Source: Pagrus major (Eukaryota; Chordata; Actinopteri; Spariformes; Sparidae). Taken from it: a stretch of 64,000 nucleotides of DNA. Under the pieces are notes generated by a model that ran no database searches, had not been told where the DNA came from, and worked only from the letters and a program-made list of their open reading frames with translations. Below, one piece after another: positions 1 to 57,884 of this stretch. Position 1 is the stretch's first letter. Every line of letters starts with the position of its first letter. The DNA lies in assembly GCF_040436345.1 (NCBI RefSeq), contig NC_133236.1, positions 13,384,443-13,448,442 of the forward strand, written 5' to 3'. A program made the translations under genes and the position numbers.

Positions 1-189
1 TGAACGTGGTTAGAGCCACTTCCAGAATGTGTTTACAGTAAACCAAAAAGATGTTGCAATACCGGATGCCGAGTGTGACACCACTTAGGGCCTTACTACA
101 CAATTACTTAACTTGTTTTCTGTGAGAATAGTTTGTAACTAAAGTTGGCCTGTAAAGACGGACTGGTGAGTAGATGAGTCTCCGTGTTC

Positions 190-380
190 GGTGTGATGAC
201 GTTTAATCTCTGTGACAACTTCTGAGGGCTCGTTTAGCCACTTGTTAGCAACCGCCGTTTTTATGACACAGAAGTGTTTTATAATTAAATTGTGGGGCAT
301 TCAGTGATGTATCCTGTGTCTGTGGTAACCACAGACCTAATTTCAGGCTTTTAACCAAAAACAATTAAAAAACCTAATTG
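190..380 (+). repeat. dispersed repeat, copy 1 of 3
   Basis: This segment shares an ordered series of words with 36590-36735 and, in reverse orientation, 43680-43850. They include a run 'attaaattgtggg' followed by 'gtggtaaccacagacc' and 'atttcagg'. The three copies are diverged and I cannot define their ends. It is probably an old transposon fragment of unknown class. Confidence 0.5.
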
Positions 381-2980
381 ACTCTGAGTCGAGGGAACTG
401 GATGTGCAAAAATGCTAACCGATTTCCAGGTTGTAGGACTACAAACAACACCACTCAATGAATGTAAGCATGGAAAAGACGGATCTTGCGGACGAGTACT
501 GTGACCTCATCAAGCTTTCCTGTAAACGAGGCAGTAGTGTTTCATCAGCTTTAGTTACCCAGTTCATCCTTCAGTTTCCATGGTTGACTGAGCCATCGAG
601 TGTGTTAAAAGGTCATTTCCGCAGCGATAAGATGAGACATGTAGCCACCACTGACACTGAAGCGCACCTCTCTCGTACCCTTATGTTCTGCTCTGCTGGT
701 CGTACTGTATGCATTTGTGTTTTCTCATGCGGACGGCTCAGATTTCATACAGCCCATGCCACTCTGTGTGATATGTTACTGTTTAGAGGAGACGGGAAGT
801 GACAGACATTTTCAAACTAACAGGAAATGCATAGTTGGGTTTCAATAACAGTGTTTGAACAGGAACACAAGTCTTTCTCCCCATCCCACACACACATATC
901 TTTGAAACTGATTTTGAACGGAAAAGCCGCCGTGTCACTGTTAACCAGTCGGGTAAGGTAATGTCACTTTATACTGTGTGTCCTGCTTTTCCTGTTCATA
1001 CCTTGAACTGATTGTGCAACAGCAGTCCCCATTTAACCTTTAAGATATTTGACAAGAGAACAAACTCAACGGTTGCTCGTCCTGAACACCCTTTGATTTG
1101 ATTTTGTTCCATGTTTATATCCTATCTTCTCCAACACTGAGAGAAGACGAGGAGGATAAAGCTGCGAAGGATGCATCCTAAAGCCTTTGGACCTGAATTA
1201 TTGTTTCTGCTGCTTCCTCTCCTCTGCTGAAAGAGATGAGATATGATGTTCAGATTACCTAAAAGCCGCCTGTCGTATCATAAATAACTGATTAAAAAGA
1301 CATGATTAAAGAGGATATGTGGTAGCTGTTCAGATTTCGTTCCTCGTCAGGGTTAATAAGTCTTTCCTTTTCGACTCCTTCCACATGTGGAGATACCTAA
1401 AGGACGACTTGCTCTAATCCACCCCAGCATGCACGGCCCAGGACCTCGTAAATACACGTCACTGATAAGGCCCAACAGACGCTGCACAAGGACTCACAAA
1501 AAGAGCAGAAAAACCTTTATGACCACCTTGATATTAGCCCTTTAAAACAGAAACAGGTTGTGGGTATCCACCTGGTTCCTATCGAGGATTGTTTATCAGT
1601 CTGAAGCAGACTCCTCTGCTCTTCCTCAAAGTGCGATGCCATGTTAATCCAAGGTTACGACCTAACTGCTCAAGAGTCGAGGGCAGAAGAGCAGCACATC
1701 TTGTAGTGATTTTACGAGTAGGTTTGGAGCAAAAGTAGATAAGAAACGATGGATTTCTTGATCCGATCAAGAGATTCAATTGTAGTCGCTAATGTTTAAA
1801 GGCCCTGGCTACCAGACAGTAGCAGGATAAAGGCCTTTACACACTGGGGGCATTTTTTTTAACTTGAATGTCAAATCTTTTTTGTTCTACTTTTACACAG
1901 AAAGCAAATATAAAAAAAATATACAATAATTTGGTTTCAGAATGAGGTATTTTCACACCACAAATGAAGGCATCAGCCAATTATGTTGTGCAAAATGGAC
2001 GTCACGGCGGAACCTGTTGATTGTTTATGTTTGCCGTGACCCTGTACTATATGACAAATGACACAAAATTATGAACACAATGTGACAAAAGTAATTTTGG
2101 ACGAGTAACCTTGATTGCTCTTTGCACAGACAGTATATGTGTTGGATTTTACCGATGGGAAATGAAGCTGTTATATCCATCTGGGCTCTCCACCAAACCA
2201 CTTTGATCAAAACAGTCGCAGAACGCAGAACAAAGGAGATGCTAGTCTACTGCTGCCTCGATCAGTTTGTAACTTTGGCACTACATTCCCTAAACCTTAC
2301 ATCTGTATTCCTACGCACAGGTACAGCTGTACCTGCCCAAAAATGTTCAAAATATGGCGTAAAAGGATATATATTTTTTAGGTGTGCCTTCTTTTAGGTG
2401 GCTAAAATACACCTTGCCGTCAATGCCGTTTAGCAGTACAATGCTCTGCTTCCCTGTCGGTGCTACGTGCTGCTTCTCCACACAGGAGAGCTGACGGGCA
2501 TCTACAGCAGGTGATACACAGACCAGGGATAAGTACCTCAAACAACCTCACATCAAAAGACCAGAACTATCACTTTAACCACAGAGGTGTAAGATCTGGG
2601 CATGGACTAATGATGTATTTTGTCATTTATTTTAGAGGACTTGTATCCAAAAAGGTTGGTAACCACACTCAAAGTAAGTCAAAAGTTTCAGTACAGGCGC
2701 AAAGTGGCAAAGAGGAAAGTCAGCTCATGAACACTACTAATGTCTACAAAAGATGTTCAGCAGGTTTGTTAAGAAAGACAGGTTGACAATGTTAAAGGCA
2801 CACCTTCTCATTTACATACAGATGGAGAGTGTGTCAGTGTGCTGGAATCATTCTGGTGTTGTGCACCTCTTAACTGCAGTGGTGGATCTTGTCTTTCCTT
2901 CAAAGGGCAGGTTTTCAGCTCCCACCTGTGAATGGAGCTCATTCAGAGAGAGAGGGTCGGTAATCCATCTGCTGTGGTAA

Positions 2981-3010
2981 CACACACACACAGACACACA
3001 CACACACACA
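2981..3010. repeat. (CA)n microsatellite
   Basis: About 30 bases of CA dinucleotide repeat with one interruption (CAGA). Confidence 0.9.
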
Positions 3011-3324
3011 ACCAGATGGTCTCTGGAGAACAGAGACATCCCATGTGTCCAGTTACAACATGAAAGCAACAGGGACGCAATTTAAGTACCCATCCATCCA
3101 CCACCCTCTTACAGATGGATGGGTGGCGGCGAGGAGAGGATGTATTAACAGAATTATTGTTCATACACACGTTTCTTTAAGAATAAGCTTTATTTGTTTT
3201 GTCTCACTGGGCAGACACTTTTCCATTTGATGCCCACAAGTTTTTTGTTGTGTAATTAGCATTACAGCCTCTCAGGACCACTAGCACGGTAACAGACTTT
3301 TGTAATTAGCTGAAAACATTAGTG

Positions 3325-4078
3325 ACATATTGGGAAGTACGCTCGTTTATTTTCTGTTATTAAGATGAGAAGATCAGTTCTACTCTTTATTTTGAATATC
3401 AAGTGTGGAGCTAGAACCAGGAGGCGATTAGCCTAGCTTAGCATAAAAACTGGAAGCAGTTGAGAAATACACGTACCAGCAACTTTAAAGCTCACAGATT
3501 AGCATGTTGTATCTCAACTTCATACAATTTGTATATTCTGTAACTTTTTCTTTTGGCAAACAACAGCTGGGCGCGGTAACTTTCTGGAGTCTTGTCAAGA
3601 AATTGCAACACAAGGGGACTCCGGCTAAAACCCACAAGTGGTCATTTTTACATTTCTGCATGTGTTCAAATTAAAAAAAGATGACACAGCGTATAAATTT
3701 GAGAGCTTAATGGCTACGTTATGCTCCTTTACTTAGGAAAATAGACACGCCTGTTTCAAACATTATAAATCTTGGCTACACTGCTAAAAACCCCCCTGCA
3801 ACTACCGGAGGAACTGTTCCGTTGGTCCTCGTCTGTAAGCTTTCAGAGAACATGCAGAAATATGGATGAAATTGATGCAAATGAACCTTTGGAGATGTTG
3901 GCTGTTGTCATAACTTTGGACAGAGCAGGCTAGCTGATTCCAGTCTTTATGCTAAGCTAAGCTAAATCCCTTGTGGTTCTTGCACTGTAATTAAAAGAGA
4001 AGACTGTCTCGATTGTCAAACCTAACACTCAGAAAGTGATGAAAAGTATTGCCCAAAATGTTGACGTCCTACTTTAAG
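3325..4078. mobile_element. MITE-like foldback element, diverged
   Basis: The left end reads 'acatattgggaagtacgc', then 'gatgagaagatcag' and 'ttagcctagcttagcataaa'. The right end is its approximate reverse complement, with 'ctttatgctaagctaagcta' and 'gcccaaaatgttgacgtcct' before 'actttaagg'. The same arms occur at 6998-7602 and 13312-13747. No coding capacity, so it is a non-autonomous DNA element. Boundaries are approximate. Confidence 0.65.
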
Positions 4079-12688: not shown

Positions 12689-15600
12689 CTGTGAGGGGGA
12701 AATAACAGACAATACATTTTTATGTATATCTTGAGATTATTCTTTAAGTTTAAAAATGTTCACACTGGGTCGAGCGAAACAACCTAATCTCAGTACAGAT
12801 GTAAAAGCAATACCTTCTTCTTTCCAGAATCTACATTTCTTTTTTCTCCTATATACAAAACACAAACATAGCAGCGTTTCAGCTCCCACTTCCATAAAGT
12901 AGGACACTAATAATGAAAACTGGTGTAGCAGAAACCAAAATATCTCGACTTTTAGACCCTATTATGGCTCAAGATCCTACACTACTCTTAATTAAACCTG
13001 ATAGTGTCTTTCTTTAGACCTTATCTTAGACCTGTCTGGTTAACACTCATGTTATTTTCAGATTTCTTGCTGTCAGTTTGTTTCAGTTTTGCTTGAAGCC
13101 CAACCTGAGATACTCAAGTGAAGTCACTTCAGTAATATTCTCAGACTTGCCCCATTAACAGAGAGCTGCTTTTAAAGAATTTTGTCTGAATAACATCCAA
13201 AATAATGGCTTAAATTAAGAAATATTTGAGCTAACGCAACCAGGATAAAAATCTGACTAAGCATTCACTATATAACCAAAACTGTGAATAGAAAAGCTAT
13301 GTAGTGCACCTTTAAATGAATAGTTCAACATTTTCAGGAAACCTTTTCAGCGTCCTGGCAAGAGTTCGATGAGAAGACTGATACCACTCTCAAGTCTGTG
13401 CACTTTGAATGGAGCTGGAGCCGGGAGGTGATTATCTTAGCTTAGCATAAAGACTAAAAACATGGAGAAACAGCTAGCCTGACTTGACATGTATTATCTC
13501 GGTTGTTTACACAAACAAAAATCTAAACTGAGTGGGGTACATTGTGTTGATTAGTAAGCCTTAGATATGTTTGAACTCCTAGTTTCCAGTCTTTATGCTA
13601 AACTAGGCTAACTACTTCCCGCCTCTAGCTTGATATGTACTTATTCATACACTAAGATATGAGCACAGTGTGGATCCTTTCAACTAACTCTTGGTAAGAA
13701 AAACAACAAATGAGCTCACTTCCCAAAATGTCAAACTATTCTTTTAAGGTTAACTTCTGAGTTTATAAATAATAGTTTGTGCTACAGGAATCCACTGTGT
13801 CTAATTAATTTAGATACGTGGTCCACATAATTTTTCAACTTTTCTAAAACTCTTTATTTCAACACTCTTTATGTATCAATCTGGCTGACAAGTTATCTGA
13901 TAAGCAAGTAATGTACTTTATATCTGACGAGTAAATTGCAGTTACCTGGTTTAAAAAATATGTTGTTGTAACCGTCTGATTTAACGCTTTTACTTGTGCC
14001 TGCCCAAAAAGATGAAACAACAACATACTGCTGTACCTAAACTTGATACAGATACATAGGAAAGCTGTAAAGCTCTGTCTTTGAATGGTGGTATTAAAAA
14101 GCATACATACACATCAGTTTTATTGAGGAAACTGTCTGAGCTTGGGTTGCCTACTATCACCACATGCTGTTCTGCTGTCAAATACACCCTCATACGGGTC
14201 ATGAGGGTTAAGATGATACCCATGTATTTAATGGAAGCAGCCCACACATAACAATGCTCATAGACAACACCAACAGAACCAGAGGAGGTGTTCAAGTCAA
14301 ATCAAAAGCACGGTTATGAGAGCTGTCAGTCACAGCTGTCCAGGTGCTGCTGTTTAATGTGGGACTGTTATTTTTTCCAGGAACTTTCAACTTCTGTCAC
14401 GTTATGGTGAGATAATAATATCTTGACAAAGATAGATTCTTTGTTCCTCTGATGCTTGCTTCAAGTTCACTTCCATAACCTCAGCATTTGTAGTTTCTTT
14501 TCTTTTCTCTCACGCTAAAAGTCTGTCTGTCACCAACCTTAGGTTACGTTTTTGATTCTTAAATACATTTCAACCAGTTATTTTCAAACTGATCTTATTA
14601 AAATGCATGATTTCCCTTTGGTCGCACCAGATTATTTGGTGGAGTATCATTGGAACAGTTTTTATAGAGGGTTTTCATGCTACCTGGAATCGGATTTCAG
14701 AAAAGTAAGAAGTCAAAGGAAAGAAACAAAGCTGCAAATGTAGGTTATTTCTGAGAGAACATAGCTCAAGGAGGTTCAGAAATTATAAATGAAAATGACA
14801 CAAAATAGGACAACAGGAAATTAATTGTTCAGGGGCAAGAAATCCAGAGGGCGTGACTAAAGCAGATATTAAAAGGACAATGAAAAGCATTGTCATAAAA
14901 CTTTGTGTTGGGAATGGACAGGTCTGTGACTGAAAAGTACATTTAAGCCTCTATTACATTTATGTATTACTACAGGTTCAGTACACACTATCAGCTAACC
15001 TGTAAGAAGTGATCCTCTTCAGTTTAGAGGCAGGCACATCATAGCCACACTCCTCCAGCACCTCCTGCCGGGCGATCTCCTCCAGGGAAAGGTCGGGTTT
15101 GTCCACCAGCCCGGCACAGAGCTCGTAGGTGACCCCCGCTGACACTGGGGGCCACTGAGAAGAGCTCTCCCCCTCCGAGGCCGACTGGCCCTCCTGAGAC
15201 TCGGCGGCGGGGGCGGCGGCTTCGGCTGCGCCCTCCTCGGTTTTTTCAGCAGACTGAGTCGGCTGCGACTTGTTCCTTTCCCACTCGCACATGTATACAG
15301 CTGGTGGTGGAACAGGAGAGAAAATATTGTTTTTACTATAACTGTTTTTAAAAGATTGTGATAAACTTACAATTAAGCATAAAGACAATGTAAGTTTTGC
15401 AGATATATTTAGATATGCACATTTACATACATTTTTCTGTACATTAAATTACAACAATGTGTGTACTTCCTTCATTGGCATGTATCTTTCACATTGTGAA
15501 GGACAATACAGATGTAGATATCTACGTTAGTTTTATTAGTATCTGTCCAGATTTTTGTTTTTTCATGTTTTTGCACACTAGTGCCAAAACAACTGATCCA

Positions 15601-48485: not shown

Positions 48486-51400
48486 CTGAGGTAAAACAAA
48501 AACAAAACAACAGCAATAAGGTTATCACTATTTTTGAGTACAAAAGCTATTTTTGTAAAGAATACTAATAAACAGTTAGGGGGATACAAAGGGACACAAA
48601 CTTTAAAATAGTCAAATGAAAGTGGACATGGTTCAGCATAAGCAGGTTTTGAAAATACGACTTTTGCCTTAAGATCTGAAAATTCATAAAAAACAAAAAC
48701 TTACAAATGCAGCCCAGTGATGTGGCTCTCAAGGTTCCTCGTCTCAGCTTTCAGCCTGTTCAGTTTATTTGAATTCTGCTTCGTCTGCATCTCCAGTTCG
48801 GTTATCTCTCTGCATCGGGAAAAAGAGAAAAGACTAAGAAACAAAAAGAAACTATTCTGTATTTATAGTGGCTAAACATGAAAAAGATACTTATTAATGT
48901 TCTCAACTCACCGGTCATTATTCACCAAAGCCTCAGTGACTTTCTGCATTTCTGTAAAAAAATAAATAACTAAATCAGTTCAAGTACATAGAAATAAAAA
49001 AATATAACAATTAAGTGGTATTACGAGTTACCTTCCTGAAGTGACTTCAGACTTGATTTGTTGTCGAAGTCTTTTTCTTCAACTGCAGCAACTTCTAAAG
49101 GAAGGAAAAACAGAGGTCTTACAGCCGTTTCACCTTCTGCTTTGCCTGTACCTTGTGACAATACATCCGCACCAACACAGCCCACAGCAGCTATACCTGT
49201 TTCTAATTCACGAATACAGTCATCCAAACTTTTTATCATCTCATCTGCTTCCTCAATTGGTCCTCTCAACCTCTGTTGCTCCTCCTGAAAAATATAAAAA
49301 ATGTCATTAACCATTTGTACTCTCAAAAGATCATAATGTTGTAATCGAGTATTTCTGTTTGAAGACTCTTACCAGATTTGCCTGCACAAGGTTTGAGTAC
49401 AGCACTTCCTTCATTTCATGTGACTGAGCTTTGCTCGTCTTTCTGAACAAGTTGTTTCTCTCTTTTAGTTTTGCACCAAAAGATTTGAGCTGTGAATTTA
49501 AAAACAAACACAATGAGGGTTAGGAGTAAACATCATATGCCCAACTGATGCTCTTCCTAATGCAATTTATGGTTAACCAGAAAAAGAGATATCTGTATTG
49601 TCCTTTAAGAGTTCAAACTGCCCATACACATTGCAGTTTGATAAATACATTGATCTTATAATACCTCTTTCTCTGAAGAATTTCTTATTTCTTCCCACAG
49701 AGGTCCATTGACAATTATCAGTGGTCTGTCTAGATCCCGCATTCGCTCCTTCAGCCTGAGAAGAGGTCAAAACAGGTCTTGAGTCAAAATATCTGAATTT
49801 CAGACAGTTTTTAGACTTACTTTAAACTTCTTACATCACTCTCTATGCCACTGTCAAATGACATGATGTTGTGTACATTACAAAGCTGTCAATCAAGGTT
49901 TACCCTGTAAATTATTACAAACTCATAGTGGGAATTTTCTGAGGTTTTAAGGACATTCAGGTTTAAACCTAAAATGAGCCATGAACACTTCTCATGGAAG
50001 AAAAATCACAATGTTAAAAGTAAAAACAAACAAACAGAAAGCACTCATAAATGTATACTTTGAAACATAAAGGTTTTGTGAAATCTGAAGCATACATACC
50101 CCTCCACCTTCTCTGTAAGGTTCAGGACATCTGCCTGATACACAACCTGTTTAGGACGGTTGATATGCCTTTCTTTTAATAAATCCATCGATGTCCGATC
50201 TGAGTCTGACAAAAACTGCAAAAACATAATAAAAAGTCACATCACTACATTTGGCTCTTGTTTTTTTTATATAGCTTTCTTTAAAAATATATATGACAAT
50301 ATACTTACTCTCCCAGGAAGGACACTCTGCCGAGGATTATGGATGACAAAGTCTATGTTGAAGAGTTTAAAGAACTCCAACACTGTGATGGTGCCATCAT
50401 CGACTTTCTGTAATCAAAACATTGAAGGCAATAAATAACTGATATGAAAAACAAAAATTAATATTTAAAAAATAAAATATGTAGACAATATACCCTCTGC
50501 ATATCACTGGCGTAGTCTTCCAGCTGGGATTCAAAAAGGCTTTGTTTGAAAGCTAAAAGATAAAAAAAATAATAACTGAATCAGAATAAAAACACAATTA
50601 CATCAGAAAAAACATCACAATATAAGGACCCTCATGATTCTCAAACTACATGAATCACAACTTACTTGATTCAAATGTAGCTTCACATTTGATTGTGGCC
50701 GTGTGACTGCTGTTGGAGTCATCTGTGGTCTGTGTGTTTATGCATGAAGCTGTAGTAATGTTACTGTCACACTCTACAGGATGAGACTGTAATCCCTGAA
50801 AACGAATTAAACAAAGAAAGAAACTAATGAAGAATGAGCTAATGAAGAATGTCTTCAGAAACACACAAAAAATATAACAAACTATAATATAATATACTGT
50901 AAATTCTCAAATCATAGTCAGTCAAGGAAAGAGAAGTGATTAACATATATATTTATTACCAGAGTTCCAATCCATTCAGAACAGCCATGTCATAATCACT
51001 AATCTGTGTTACTTTTGAATAATCTCAACTAATCAGGTCCAATCACATCTAATTTACTGTTTTTCTGTAAATTACATTACAAATTACAAAGTGCTTCCAG
51101 CTTCTTAGATGTGAATATTTTCTGATTTCTTTATTCTTCTAGCAGTTAACTGAATATTTCAGGTTGTGGACAATTTGAGGATGATATCTTGGGCTTTAAG
51201 AAACAATGATTAACATTTTTCACCATTTGCTGATATTTTATAGACCAAACGACTGATCGATTAATCTTAAAAAAATAAAATAATCACCAATGAAAATAAT
51301 TGTTAGCTGCGGTCCTAATAACATGACTATGTTTTTGTACTAATAGGATCAGTGCTACAGAAATATATATTTTCTAGAAAGTATCATGTAAAAGGCACAC

Positions 51401-54400
51401 ATGGTGGAAGTTTTTAGTCTGCATACAGGAATGTATAACAAGAGCACATCAGGAAATCTATTATTATCATGTGATAAATATACTAATAAAATAAGGAAGA
51501 TTATAATTTAAGGCATGTCTCTCATATAAACCTGGTTCTCTCTGTAGTCAAGGTAAATAAAGACTTTGATTTGAGAATTTGCAGTACTATAATCTGACCT
51601 ACCTGTTCGTAGTCAGTGGCAGTCTCAGTGGATCCTCTCATTCTCTTCTCAGCCTCCATATTATTTTCATCTTCTGGCAAAGGTCTCTTTTGGCCGTGGA
51701 CATCTCTCATAAACTCCTCTTCGAATACATTATCCTCTAAAGGCCCATCCATGTAGAACTCCCTGGAAGGACTCACTTTTTCCTGGGCTCTCCGAGGACT
51801 CCTTGTGTCCAGCATTTCTGACATATCTTCAATGCTACCAAGCTCTTCATCGTAAATGTCGCTCACATCACCGTCGAAGTTGTTCAGTTGATGAGTAACG
51901 TTGACAGTGACTGTCCTTGTATGTTCTCCAACTGAATTCACTTTGTTTGGATCGTCTGCCTTGCTTCTTTGGGGGAGTTTTGGCTTAAAGCCTCCCACTG
52001 AGAGTCTTGACATGAGTTGTTTAGTCTTCAAGTTGAACGGAGTTGTGGAAGCAGTAGAGGGTTGTTCTTCGTCCATAAGACATTGAGCTTGGGCATCTTC
52101 TTCAGTGTTTACTGAGCCCATTTCCAGTTCAGGCTCCATTACAGGTAGGGATTTAGTTTTGTCTTGGTCGTGTTCCAGCTGAGGCAAAGGTGCTGTGCAG
52201 CTTTCCATGGCAATAGTATCAGGAGCTGTGTTTATCATGTGGCTCAAACGCCTTATTTTAGAATGGAGATCGGCAAAACTCTTTCGTCTAGACTTCTGTG
52301 AAGGCACTGTATCGCTATCATCATCATGGTCAACAGCACTGGGTGAACAAGTTTGATCTGTAGTTTCAGGTTTCTTCCCGTTATCAGTTTCATTTAAGTC
52401 AAGAGAATCTGGATGAGTTGTGATTTCCACACCTTCTGGGCTGGATGATGCTCCATTTCTCTGTGGTGAAGTCATCTCTGTTTTATTCAAATGGTCAGAA
52501 TTAACAGACAAGTCCTGTGTGGAAGAAAGGCATTGAGGTGACTCATCTGTACATTTTTGTCCCATAATGTGGCCTGTTTGAGCTTCAGTCATAGCCATGC
52601 TCAGATCATCCCCTGTCATGGTTTTATCTACTGGACTCTCCAAGACAGCTGAAACAAAACCTGGAGCTTCAATTTCAGTATTGACATCAGACTTCTGTGT
52701 TTTAAGTTGGTCCAGGACGCCATTTGTGTCTTCAATTTCTTGAGGGGTCAGTGCAGCAGGGGCCACTGCTTTGGTGATCACAGGATTAGCCCAGGGGCCA
52801 CTCATCCTGGATAGGGAGTTCTTAAATCCTGGATCCAAAGTGTGAGCTGATGACGATCGGTTTCTACGTGGACGACAAGTCTCGCTCTCTCTTTTCTTCA
52901 CTGATAAAGAAAAATCCACGTTTTCATTGGCGGATAGAATGTTAGAATCTCGGTGTGGAACTGAACCGGACACTGAATTGCTGGCAATATTTACAGTGTG
53001 ACTTTGTGTCACATCCATAGCTGCATCATTTGCAGTGAACCTCACTGTTTTCTCTCCGCATGTAGGTAGAAAGTCCACATTTGTATGTGACTGTGGATTG
53101 AAATCAGTGGCAATGTTGACAGTGTGACTTCTGGTCACATCCATGGCTCCATCGTTTGCAGTGAACTGCACTGTCTTCTCTTGACAAGCAGGCAACGTGC
53201 TGCAATTGGGATGCAACTGTGGATCAAAGTCAGTGGCGATGTTGACAGTGTGACTTCTCGTCACATCCATGGCTGCATCGTTTGCAGTGAACCTCACTGT
53301 CTTCTCTCCACAAGCAGGTACAGGGTCCAGATTTTGATGTGACTGTGGGTTGAAATCAGTAACGATGTTTACAGTGTGACTTTGTGTCACATCCATTGCA
53401 GCATCATTTGCAGTGAACCTCACTGTCTTCTCTCCATAAGCAGGCAAAAAGTCCACATTTTGATGCGACTGTGGGTCAAAATCAGTGACGATGTTTACAG
53501 TGTGACTTTGTGTCACATCCATGGCTGCATCATTTGCACTGAATCTTACTGTCTTCTCTCCATAAGCGGGCACAAGGTCCACGTTTTGATGTGAGCGTGG
53601 GTCAAAATCAGTGATGATATTTACAGTGTGACTTTGTGTCACATCCATTGCAGCATCATTTGCAGTGAACCTCACTGTCTTCTCTCCACAGTCAGGTAGA
53701 AAGTCCAAATTTTTGTGTGAATGCAGTTCTAAACCAGTGGCAATGTTTACAGTGTGACTTCGTGTCACATCCATACATGCATCATCTGCAGAAAACCTGA
53801 CTGTTTTCTCTCTGCAGTCATCTTCAGCATCAAATTTGACCTGTGGACAGGGAAGAAACACAATCACTGGAAGTGTACAGTCATAGAAAACATCCATGTT
53901 AAGAAAGACATTTTAAATTAGCATTACTAATAAGTACTATTTCACCACATTAGAGCCACCAGAAAAATAAAGTATGCTACTTTTCTCTAAAAGAAATAAA
54001 TGCTGTGATTAAATCACTGTGATTCTGCATAACTTTACAAATGTGTTTATATCAGGAGAAACATAATGTAGCATGGTACATACCAAACACAGCTCTAAAA
54101 TTCTGTTTACTTTATTTTAAATAAACAGTTTTCAGTGCAGTTGGGTTGTATATTAATTAATACGATTACATGATGAAAAAAATTGAAGTAAAGTTTTAAG
54201 CTTACCTGATGTCTTTGTGACTTTGTCCTTAAGGATGGCTTCAATGAGGTTTCCAATGGAATTAATTCTGAAGACGTTATAAAACATTAGTTTTTAATTC
54301 TATCACATTATATCATATTACCAAAATAACAATATTTTTTTTTATCAAATGTTACGTTTGTGGTTCACTTTTTCATAATTGTCCGAAGGTCTCATTTTGG

Positions 54401-57400
54401 TTACTCTCACACCAGATTATTCCATCAACATTTGAGGCAAGAAACAAACAAACAAATAAATAAAATAAAAGTAAAACTGGAAGGTTTGTGGTTTCTATAC
54501 CTGTATGTTTAGATGATCCAAGTGCTTCACTGTTATTCGGTCCTGAAGTCATCTTTGCTGTGGGGTACATGTCTGTGGGAATAGACTGAAAAAGATCCTC
54601 TGAGCTAATGAGTCCTTCAATCCGGCCTGTCTGAGCCTCAGTCATATCCATGCTGACATCATTTTCAGGACAGATTGTACCCCCGTGAAACAGCTCTCCA
54701 AAGCTCCTGGTTGTATTCAGTGATTGATTTTCTTTACCAACATCAGTTTTAGGCTGTGACAGGAGGCTGTTTGTGTCGACAGTTCCCTTAGCGGATGCTG
54801 CAGCAGGAGGTACCATTCTGGCATTCACAGGATTACTACTGGTGGCACCTGTTTTGGAGAGACCTGAAAGGAAGCGTTGAAATCCTAGATCCAAACCATT
54901 TGCTGACGAGCTGGGCAGACCACAAGTCTCACGTTTTCTCTCCACCAGAGTTGAAGCATTGTCCACTTTTCCACTGATGCGATTTTGGTTTGGAGGAGCT
55001 AATGAACCACTGTCAATGTTCACCGTGTGACTCTGAGTCATGTCCATGAACTCATTACCTGCAGTGAACACTACTGTTTTCTCTATGCAGTCATCTTTTG
55101 TATCAAGGTTGACCTAAAAAGAGAAAAGACAGTACGTTATCCCATACTCATGGCAACATTAAAAAACAGTGCTAAACAGACCTTTCCATGCAGTCATTAG
55201 TTTTTGGAATGTCAATACCATACAAAGGATTATTGACAGACTTAAAACTTTGGCAAGATCAGAAATTAAGATGACACTTAGTTTTACAGGTCCCCAAATA
55301 ATTACCAAGTAACATATTTGAAATTACCCCCCAAATTAACACCATACTTAGTGCATTATGATTTGGTAATTACCACCTACTTACCATGAAATTTCTGTAC
55401 CTTTGTTAACAAAATAAATTCTAACAGCAAAGTAAACAAATTACAAAACTCACCTTGTGTCTTTGATGAGAAGCATGTAGAGAAGGATTCGTCAAGGATG
55501 TCGTACCTAAAATTGATAATTGAAATGTATTAAGATCCTATTTCAACTGTATTCAATTCAGTTGTGAAAATTAATAAAATGTTTTTAAAAAGTCATTGAA
55601 TTGACCTGATTTAGTTTATTCATTAATTAATTATTTGATTTAAAGTTCAATACCTTTAGGGTTGAATGATGCCAGCATTCCACTGCTCTGCTGTTGTTTG
55701 GACACTGCTGTCTGTGACGCTCTGCTGTCAGGGTGGGAGTACATTTCTTGCATGGGGAGATGACACTGAAAGGGACTGTCATCATCAGCAAAACTCCGAA
55801 TGCGGCCTGTCTGCGCTTCAGTCAAATCCATGTCATCCGTTGGACAGAGGGCACTTCCGTAAGATAATTCACCAATCTTCCTGGATGTGTTTAGCGACTT
55901 CTCCATCACAGCAGAAACAGACGTTGGGGCCTGATTCTCTTTATCCACATCAGATCGTTGTGTTTTAATCTGGGCCAGGGAGCTGTTTGTTTCTCTAGTG
56001 GTTGTTCCTGCAGGATTAACACTTGGGCCATTTGGTTTAAAGAGGCTGGCGAGGAAGTTTTCAAATCCAGCATCCAAACAAGGCACTGATGACGATATGT
56101 TTCTGTTCTCCGCACTCAAATCCATGTTTCTGCTAGTGGGAAGTGATACTAACCCACTTGTCATGTTCATAGTATGACTTAAGGTCATATCCATGGATCC
56201 ATCATTTGCAGAGAACATCACTGTTTTGTCTCTGCTAGTGGGTAAAATGTCAAAGTTTTGAAGGGAAATGTCTGCGAGTATGTCTGCATCATTGGCAATG
56301 TTTATAGTGTGACTTTGGGTCATGTCCATGAATGCATCATCAGTCGCAAACATCACTGTCTTCTCCCCAAAGTCATTCCCAATACCAAAGTTGACCTGGT
56401 GAAGATGAGTAGCTTTATGTTAATTAACAGTCACTGAATATCAGGTTTTCCACTGATGAACATTTTTATGACATATTATAACAATAACAAAGAAACTAAA
56501 CCATTTGGTGGCTGTGCAGTTGTAGGAAACAGCAAAGATAAAACAGCAAAGTAAAACAGACTTCCAGCTCACCGTATCCTTTTGTTGAGAAGCATGTAGA
56601 GGAGCGTTCAAAAGGGTTTCCATTCCTAAGTTTGAAGAGTTGAATTTAGTATCATCTTACACTGTGACAGACAACGCATGCACATAGTAACTTGGTTGTT
56701 TTCTATTTGAAAACTTAATATCCCTACCTGTAATTTGTTGAATCCCATCTTCAGTGACTGCCACCTGGACCCTTATGAAAGAAGACGATTTTCATGTTGT
56801 TAAGACGGAAAAAAATGACCAGTTTTGTGAGACTGTATTTTATACAATCTTAAGTCTAAGATTATATAAAATACAGCTGAATGTGTCGATCTTGAAAGGG
56901 TCAATTCACTTTACCTATTTTGCGTGGCTGCCGCTGCTGTGAAACAACACAGGACAAAATTACAAAGCTGCTTAAAGGAAATTACATTTTTAAAAATTCA
57001 TATACTTGTACATATAACATACTTACTTAAGGGTATTAAATCCTGTAAAGGACTTCGGGCAGGAGACACATTTTTCACATCGCTGTAAAGAGAAAATACA
57101 GATTATGTTGAAATGTCAGTGTCCTTGTGGAAAACTAAGCCTGACTTTTTTTTCTTCTAGTGTCTTACTTTGAGAACAGGAGAACATCGTTGGCAGGGGC
57201 AAAGCTGACTCTTCTTGAATTCCTCTTTTCCACTGGTTTGGCACACTCCACCTTAGTGGAAATAAAATTAACAAATAAAGTAAAACATACATGGATAAAC
57301 AATGGGGGAGAATTGATACTTATAAAACATATTATGGTTGGAGTGTCTCTGCCATTAAAACCAAAATCTCCACTTTAACATACAAACAAAGCAAAGAAAA

Positions 57401-57884
57401 AATGTTAAATCAAGCAATCCAATTACCACACGTTCCTGTTGCACTGGGTCAGGGAATACGATCGATTTCCGCGGTGCTTTTAAAATCTGAATGTGATAAA
57501 TTGCATAGAATAGTGTTCAGGCTAACAATCTGTTCACAAGAAAAGTAAAGAGCATATATATACTTTGTCCATAACATTATTTGCAGCACTAACCGAAGAA
57601 ATGCGCCGCTTGGAGAATCCACCACTTTCACTGTCAAACAAGACATGAAACACAGTATTATTCAGTTCTGGTGTATATGCATGTAGGATGCTTTTTTTTA
57701 ATAATTGTATACAATGCCAATACAGTCTCACCACATGTAAATGCTAATGCCAGGTGTACAGCTGGCTTTGAGGAAATGTTTAGACAGTTGCTTAGAGATT
57801 CAGGTACAAAGCACACATGACCCACTTTTTCCTCAATAACATAATTTTTACTCACTCATTCCTGGGAGGATCCAGAGGCTCCAT
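45895..57884 (-). CDS. knl1: KNL1 (CASC5/Spc105) kinetochore scaffold
   Basis: 29 coding exons, 5622 nt, 1873 residues. Minus strand: 57884-57856, 57630-57594, 57486-57427, 57251-57169, 57082-57027, 56936-56915, 56771-56728, 56625-56573, 56395-55654, 55506-55454, 55113-54501, 54267-54206, 53840-51603, 50795-50666, 50552-50494, 50407-50309, 50215-50100, 49755-49665, 49489-49373, 49284-49197, 49094-49032, 48951-48912, 48809-48705, 48485-48385, 47839-47774, 47570-47461, 47204-47083, 46332-46207, 45991-45895. Every junction keeps frame. Order: PP1-docking SSILK (residues 21-25) and RVSF (56-59); about 13 MELT-like motifs (130-1364); conserved DFVIHNPRQSVLPGR (to 1460); coiled coil (about 1460-1670); C-terminal RWD-type region ending KIVKKIHQNLLC. 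In the family, Mps1-phosphorylated MELT motifs recruit BUB3-BUB1, and the C-terminus binds the Mis12 complex. The start ATG has A at -3 and G at +4. Confidence 0.95.
48130..48343 (-). mobile_element. truncated hAT-like MITE in a knl1 intron
   Basis: The minus strand starts TAGGGCTGCACAGTTAATCG with repeated 'atcaaaatcgcaata', like the left end of the element at 25781. Internal words such as 'catctggagaacaag' recur near 18190. No matching second end is present. It lies in the intron between knl1 coding exons 24 and 25. Confidence 0.55.
48705..50215 (-). CDS. knl1: knl1 coiled-coil exons (17-23)
   Basis: Exons encode heptad-like, Leu/Lys/Glu-rich sequence: MDLLKERHINRP, VLNLTEKVEGLKERMRDLDR, LKSFGAKLKERNN, EEQQRLRGPIEEADEMIKSL, EMQKVTEALVNNDREITELE and LKAETRNLESHITGLHL. 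No transmembrane segment. This is the coiled coil known in KNL1 to sit between the motif arrays and the C-terminal domain and to bind Zwint. Confidence 0.85.
49095..49196 (-). other. knl1: 102-nt in-frame, stop-free intron of knl1
   Basis: Donor ACAG|GTATAG at 49197/49196 and acceptor CTTCCTTTAG|AAGTTG at 49095/49094 with a good pyrimidine tract. Length 102 is a multiple of three and no stop falls in the frame, so retention would add 34 residues (about GIAAVGC to FFLPL). The spliced form reads ELETEVAAVEEKD, which keeps the coiled-coil pattern and is the likelier product. Confidence 0.6.
52981..53840 (-). repeat. knl1: seven 126-bp coding repeats (42-residue MELT units)
   Basis: The word 'acatccat' (minus-strand ATGGATGT, encoding MDV) starts at 53011, 53137, 53263, 53389, 53515, 53641 and 53767, exactly 126 bases apart each time. 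A typical unit reads CGEKTVRFTANDAAMDVT followed by QSHTVNI or RSHTVNI, then a variable D/N-FDPQSHQN linker. All seven keep the Thr of MDVT and the SHT motif, and all stay in frame within one exon. Confidence 0.95.
56915..56936 (-). CDS. knl1: 22-nt knl1 microexon with NAGNAG acceptor
   Basis: This exon completes a Thr codon left by the previous exon and encodes TAAATQN plus two bases of an Arg codon. It is needed to bring exons 57082-57027 and 56771-56728 into one frame. The acceptor is 'tttcacagcag', so either AG could be used; the second choice removes three bases (one Ala). Confidence 0.75.
57169..57630 (-). CDS. knl1: knl1 PP1-docking exons (SILK and RVSF)
   Basis: Exon 57630-57594 ends GGFSKRRISS; exon 57486-57427 begins ILKAPRKSIVFPDP, so the SSILK motif is made only by splicing. 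Exon 57251-57169 carries EKRNSRRVSFAPANDV. In KNL1, SILK and RVSF bind protein phosphatase 1, and Aurora B phosphorylation of the Ser residues blocks it. Both motifs are intact here. Confidence 0.9.

Follow-up and report, generated by a model that had tools for sequence, protein, structure and literature searches.

The stretch of DNA analyzed here, called the window below, comprises 64,000 nucleotides of Pagrus major (NCBI RefSeq assembly GCF_040436345.1, contig NC_133236.1, forward-strand positions 13,384,443 to 13,448,442); all coordinates count from its first nucleotide. It carries on its minus strand a gene that, judged by its sequence, is knl1, which encodes a kinetochore scaffold, with MELT stretches, a Knl1_RWD_C domain and a match to human KNL1. 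At the center of this gene, three consecutive pairs of a short exon (S1–S3) and a long exon (L1–L3), hereafter modules 1 to 3, occupy exactly 51603–56625, the span given for them in the original prediction, which had been made from the sequence without database searches. The introns between and within the modules are GT-AG at all five positions, as are the flanking sites, and the six exons joined together are open for 1254 codons. The layout, in the order of the gene, is as follows.

56728–56771, minus strand: exon U, 5' of the modules; exits at phase 1; human KNL1 aligned over its junction with S1
56626–56727, minus strand: intron u1 (U-S1), 102 nt; final ~34 nt weakly like the end of u2
56573–56625, minus strand: S1, short exon of module 1, 53 nt; phase 1 to 0; human counterpart from 134 on
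56396–56572, minus strand: intron i1 (S1-L1), 177 nt; donor side resembles i2; 14-base tandem repeat at 56527–56559
55654–56395, minus strand: L1, long exon of module 1, 742 nt; phase 0 to 1; two TxxF-MELT-SHT units, KI-like motif, KEN, MDLTEAQTG
55507–55653, minus strand: intron u2 (L1-S2), 147 nt; acceptor side resembles u1
55454–55506, minus strand: S2, short exon of module 2, 53 nt; phase 1 to 0
55114–55453, minus strand: intron i2 (S2-L2), 340 nt
54501–55113, minus strand: L2, long exon of module 2, 613 nt; phase 0 to 1; one MELT unit, KI-like motif, KEN, MDMTEAQTG
54268–54500, minus strand: intron u3 (L2-S3), 233 nt
54206–54267, minus strand: S3, short exon of module 3, 62 nt; phase 1 to 0
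53841–54205, minus strand: intron i3 (S3-L3), 365 nt; similarity to i1 or i2 undetectable
51603–53840, minus strand: L3, long exon of module 3, 2238 nt; phase 0 to 0; seven MELT units, decayed KI-like stretch, MAMTEAQTG

The assignment to knl1 draws on several searches. The MELT family of Pfam (PF19221) was matched at an E-value of 7.7e-116 in 10 stretches, and a pattern list likewise gives 10 units with SHT. The C-terminal RWD domain was found as Knl1_RWD_C (PF18210, E 7.8e-25) with a query of exon pieces joined by eye. Near the N terminus, the PP1 site RVSF is present as NSRRVSFA in the open frame 57168–57374, where the human NSRRVSFA is aligned in a domain that is itself sub-significant. 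Human KNL1, represented by the 2342-residue entry 8ppr_K of the PDB set, was matched at E 3e-33 by the L3 tail with later exons and at E 3.5e-36 by a profile of S plus MELT. A 66-residue repeat query against the whole genome (785.9 Mb, 25 contigs) returned seven matches, all within knl1, so that this one query revealed no second copy.

We consider it likely that tandem duplication of an exon pair, with a long-exon splice donor made from former exon and a later growth of the array in L3, is the best explanation for this arrangement. Directly supporting it are the exon homology, the phases, the motif order, the intron flanks of modules 1 and 2, the similarity between the L2 donor and the L3 exon, and the human counterpart of S1 and the first MELT.

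The splice phases, predicted to be the same across modules, are so for five of the six exons. Thus, S1, S2 and S3 are entered at phase 1 and left at phase 0, and L1 and L2 are entered at 0 and left at 1, the exception being L3, which exits at phase 0. The endings foreseen for the short exons are present, namely HASQQ (S1), HASHQ (S2) and (R)TKSQ (S3, which is 9 nt longer than the other two). S1 and L1 together measure 795 nt, S2 and L2 666 nt; since each sum is a multiple of 3, a whole S-L pair could be added or skipped in frame, whereas a lone S or L could not.

Similarity between the modules was evaluated at both the protein and DNA levels. For S1 and S2, one of 5000 shuffles scored as well with protein and none of 5000 with codon-shuffled DNA; the respective counts were 217 and 39 for S1-S3, and 5 and 549 for S2-S3, the last not being significant. 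Two other short exons of knl1 (U and C2) gave no significant similarity in the same comparison. The top DNA BLAST match had an E-value of 4.5e-18 for modules 1 and 2, 8.3e-36 for modules 1 and 3, and 9.8e-30 for modules 2 and 3, excluding two rows of 100% identity that arise from intron stretches included in two modules at once. A long-exon profile recovers, by construction, the three long exons (domain independent E-values, i-E, of 4e-98 to 1e-109). When the six frames of the window were searched on both strands over stop-free stretches of at least 15 residues, no fourth module was found, as the long-exon profile gave nothing else below E 6 and the S plus MELT profile nothing else below E 0.23. 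Between modules, DNA identity is 48–67% in the S exons, 70–75% at the start of L and 58–61% in the tails, where 14 of 32, 21 of 33 and 25 of 39 fourfold sites are identical. The low identity of the tails points to ancient copies. In the three-module alignment, some stretch found in two modules is missing from the third, a different one for each module, as would be expected had a fuller ancestor lost pieces independently in each module.

The long exons had also been predicted to share one order of motifs, and this held for the MELT units, a motif resembling the KI motif of human KNL1 (KI-like below) and MxxTEAQTG. The common order is MELT unit(s), SSS...LDxGFxx(F/S)Lxx(L/M), TN..L.Q.KT...DV, KEN, MxxTEAQTG and a short end; KEN occurs in L1 and L2 alone, and the KI-like motif is decayed in L3.

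56030–56083, minus strand: KI-like motif of L1, LDAGFENFLASLFK, with flanks
54847–54900, minus strand: KI-like motif of L2, LDLGFQRFLSGLSK, with flanks
52791–52844, minus strand: decayed KI-like stretch of L3, LDPGFKNSLSRMSG, with flanks
55934–55942, minus strand: KEN of L1 in the context KENQAP, weak taken alone
54727–54735, minus strand: KEN of L2
55805–55831, minus strand: MDLTEAQTG of L1
54625–54651, minus strand: MDMTEAQTG of L2
52572–52598, minus strand: MAMTEAQTG of L3
52982–53812, minus strand: 126-bp tandem array within L3 (Tandem Repeats Finder: period 126, 6.6 copies)

In L1 and L2, the KI-like motif reads F-x-x-F-L-x-x-L following LDxG, and in L3 the second F is gone. Its pattern, composed after the sequence had been viewed, arose in 3 of 20000 shuffles of L1, and KEN in 462 of 20000. 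A KEN in KNL1 might contact CDC20 or the APC/C. The number of TxxF-MELT-SHT units differs among the long exons, with two in L1, one in L2 and seven in L3. The seven are spaced exactly 42 residues apart, and the six array units compared are 61–90% identical in DNA. From this sequence pattern, the 126-base array looks like the outcome of a process within the exon, separate from the exon-pair duplication and, for much of the array, younger than it.

The comparison with human KNL1 covered parts of the protein. S1 together with the first MELT aligns with human residues 134–190, spanning the predicted U-S1 and S1-L1 junctions and thereby supporting both. A long-exon profile in which the L3 row starts at the last MELT unit aligns with human 165–249, from the first MELT through LDxGFxxFLxxL, and puts the latter on human KI2 (start at 238, obtained from K212 of isoform 2 by a shift of 26 residues), with a weak domain i-E of 0.012. 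Because of these two alignments, each module copy would, by sequence, resemble the human MELT1-KI unit. Single-sequence searches returned no human counterpart for the tail of L1 or the middle of L3. The final 47 residues of L3 were aligned with the human protein (1769 onward), within a domain that owes its score mainly to the later exons. In the human gene, the MELT repeats lie largely in one very large exon, on which ground the original prediction considered that the fish arrangement may be specific to its lineage.

Human MELT1-KI1-KI2 and the modules here have the same succession of S peptide, TxxF, MELT, SHT and then a hydrophobic F-x-x-F-[IL]-x-x-L (PMC12102207, PMC7614552, PMC3267040). 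They differ in that human KNL1 has two KI motifs beside one MELT, while each of the three modules has one KI-like motif, and in that the latter is without the K-I residues and two residues longer. The last of these sources gives the strict KI consensus as KI[DN]xxxF[LI]xxLK and KI2 in its BUBR1-binding form as I-x-F-x-x-F-I-x-R-L (PMC3267040).

As a separate observation, the human stretch at ~1076–1099 of 8ppr_K, ahead of an internal MELT, is S-like, being equalled by 24, 43 and 280 of 5000 shuffles for S1, S2 and S3, respectively. It hints that the S peptide may belong to an older repeat unit.

The introns were compared with one another both in full length and anchored at the splice sites, the latter with control sites taken from the window outside 49000–57500. 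On the donor side of the S introns, i1 and i2 match with a score of 24, which 0 of 191 controls reached from either side; with module 3, controls were as good in 29/191 and 25/191 cases (i1-i3) and in 49/191 and 34/191 cases (i2-i3). S1 with i1 and S2 with i2 align without a break over the donor and some 40 intron bases, with the caveat that the match overlaps the short 14-base repeat of i1. On the acceptor side upstream of S, the similarity between u1 and u2 is weaker (24/1411 and 48/1411 controls as good), and the anchored test gave none for u1-u3 or u2-u3, nor on the acceptor side upstream of L for the S-L introns. By these sequence comparisons, modules 1 and 2 have intron-edge sequence in common and module 3 does not.

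A further piece of evidence comes from the boundary of the long exons. L1, L2 and L3 align at a GGT. L1 and L2 use it as their splice donor, but in L3, at 52432, it is ordinary coding sequence, beyond which L3 continues for 276 residues. The two stretches compared are the following.

54469–54500, minus strand: initial 32 nt of intron u3, matched to 52401–52432 in the L3 exon
52401–52432, minus strand: part of the L3 exon matched to the beginning of u3, with the latent donor AAG|GTGTGG at the 5' end

Of the 30 bases that follow the GT of u3, 21 equal the L3 exon, and among the 7758 GT sites in the window none but the L2 donor and the latent L3 site reaches even 19. Anchored extension of u3 against L3 was matched by 0 of 1500 controls outside the gene, and the L2-L3 exon alignment extended by u3 was equalled by 1 of 774 donor-like controls. 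These figures are somewhat flattering, because the site had been noticed before testing. The donors of L1 and L2 fit the consensus at 6 of 9 positions, the weakest of the six module exons, and the latent site in L3 at 7 of 9. Taken together, the sequences suggest that the L2 donor arose from former exon at a duplication junction. Intron u2 also matched the tail of L3 (p 0.005 by shuffling), but this match was dropped, being gapped, AT-rich and not colinear. Two side observations concern the same boundary: the latent donor at 52432 on the minus strand could serve as a cryptic splice site, and read-through of the L2 donor would leave 42 codons open into u3 before a stop (54376–54500).

Several results weigh against the duplication, or against parts of it. 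The likeness of S3 to the other short exons is moderate only (6 of 5000 shuffles as good when S3 is compared with S1 and S2 summed). Informative sites favor modules 1 and 2 as closest in the S exons (17 versus 9 and 7), give this pairing 8 at the start of L versus 14 and 14 for the other two, and favor modules 2 and 3 in the tails (78 versus 66 and 54); the segments disagree on the order of duplication, and we claim none. The introns of module 3 resemble neither those of module 1 nor those of module 2, and none of 28 full-length alignments among eight introns was significant, the lowest p (0.072) belonging to a module intron and another knl1 intron. Against the whole L3 tail, u3 gives p 0.004 for its first 60 bases but 0.16, not significant, for the entire intron. 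For the L1 donor, the match with the L3 exon ends after ~8 bases and is not significant; 406 of 774 controls are as good, and 467/1500 and 379/1500 in the anchored extension. LDAGFENFLASLFK, LDLGFQRFLSGLSK and LDPGFKNSLSRMSG all depart from the strict KI consensus, to which they could be fitted only with a two-residue insertion, and a single-sequence search gave no human match for the KI-like region. Finally, the S-like human stretch at ~1076–1099 leaves room for an older common history of the unit. The proposal that a whole exon pair was copied along with its intron therefore stands in part: homologous exons following the same order, the phases of five of six exons and the intron edges of modules 1 and 2 agree with it, but the module 3 introns and the full-length intron alignments lend it no support. 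Likewise, aligning the module introns, which the original prediction had put forward as a check, lent support at the edges of modules 1 and 2 and none for module 3 or for any full-length pair. Three features went unnoticed in the original prediction: the KI-like motif and MxxTEAQTG in each long exon, the alignment of the L2 donor with L3 exon sequence, and the separate nature of the array growth inside L3.

Under the duplication model, the ancestral knl1 would have had one S followed by one very long L, starting with MELT1 and the KI-like region and running into a long disordered tail. A tandem genomic duplication starting in the intron before S would have taken in S, the intron after it and the first part of L, and a further duplication, perhaps by unequal exchange between the copies, would have led to three modules. 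As S plus L has phase 1 at both ends, every added pair preserves the reading frame. The break would lie within L just beyond TEAQTG. In the shortened L1 and L2, a GGT that had been exonic would have turned into the splice donor, and L3 would have kept the ancestral tail. Expansion of the 42-residue TxxF-MELT-SHT unit, confined to L3, would have come later. We infer the number and order of these events as well as the origin of the donor. More tentatively, the gene may have gained up to three reinforced checkpoint units, each a MELT plus a KI-like motif, by an exon-pair duplication that ended inside a giant exon, turning GGT into a donor and the exon beyond it into intron, and in-frame skipping of modules could then give proteins with one, two or three units.

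Other histories have to be considered. The triplication could predate the split of fish and tetrapods, the latter having lost the extra introns, in which case the structure would be ancestral and no fish novelty. The high divergence of the modules, seen at the fourfold sites, would fit this, as would the human stretch at ~1076–1099, which precedes an internal MELT, resembles S1 and S2, and is where the S plus MELT profile aligns from its S part (domain 12). The human stretch was, however, chosen among three internal candidates, its match to S3 is not significant, and the other two candidates gave 105 to 3827 of 5000 in six comparisons with S1–S3; we regard this history as unlikely. That L3 instead lost an earlier donor, so that its coding sequence beyond the latent GGT is former intron and all modules inherited the L donor from their ancestor, would accord with the alignment of the three exons at GGT and with the 7 of 9 donor positions of the latent site. 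We hold it to be rather doubtful, since the human match of the last 47 residues implies that the tail, at its end at least, has long been coding, which makes a conversion of intron to coding sequence in L3 less likely; the human searches, however, were negative for the stretch directly after the site.

Two further accounts were considered. An origin of three repeats within one exon, with introns inserted later at matching places, is favored by the repeat growth inside an exon that is certain here, given the seven 126-bp units of L3, and by the dissimilar introns of module 3. Such insertions would have to hit the same positions and phases in every module, and they would account neither for the donor-side similarity of i1 and i2 nor for the similar S exon that precedes each L; this makes the account very improbable. 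Hardly credible to us is an artefact of the gene model, in which S2 and S3 would be no true exons or the splicing of the L exons would differ, as skipping S alone disrupts the frame, the S exons are alike in sequence and phase across modules, and the human protein aligns through U, S1 and L1.

Viewed as tandem exon duplication in general, the case is typical in having a phase-symmetric (1-1) unit, homologous exons in order and some similarity of the flanking introns. It differs in that one boundary may fall within an exon, with the donor coming from exonic sequence. Seen next to the evolution of MELT arrays in KNL1/Spc105 (Tromer, Snel and Kops 2015, as cited in PMC7292645), the near-identical units of L3 are such repeat growth, whereas the modules consist of paired exons, contain introns and include non-MELT motifs. 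Thus, knl1 seems, from its sequence, to have grown by copying of exons with introns as well as by repeat expansion within one exon. The case is a variant of the known repeat growth of KNL1, distinctive in the copied MELT plus KI-like unit and the possible exon-derived donor. The titles and abstract openings of the papers listed yielded nothing on the exon structure of fish knl1, from which absence from print is not claimed, and a pattern scan of a set of genome contigs for relatives gave 66 matches, none of which was confirmed.

The human MELT1-KI1-KI2 unit binds BUB1/BUBR1 strongly, the number and strength of MELTs determine how strongly an unattached kinetochore signals, and the human KI motifs that reinforce a MELT adjoin MELT1, according to PMC12102207 and PMC7614552. 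By analogy, modules 1 and 2 may represent two reinforced docking sites for checkpoint proteins, and module 3 may be an array rich in MELT units whose KI-like motif has decayed. A protein with two or three MELT plus KI-like units is thus the functional reading that we infer, its TPR binding and checkpoint effect being putative. If this lineage copied the reinforced unit as exon pairs, it would offer a natural test of KI-like motifs versus MELT number, and, if true, the donor of L2 would be an example of a splice site created out of coding sequence by duplication.

Elsewhere in the window, a minus-strand frame at 14978–15388 resembles NUDIX weakly (PF00293 at E 0.014, which falls short of the Pfam cut-off) and is perhaps an exon of a nudix hydrolase gene.

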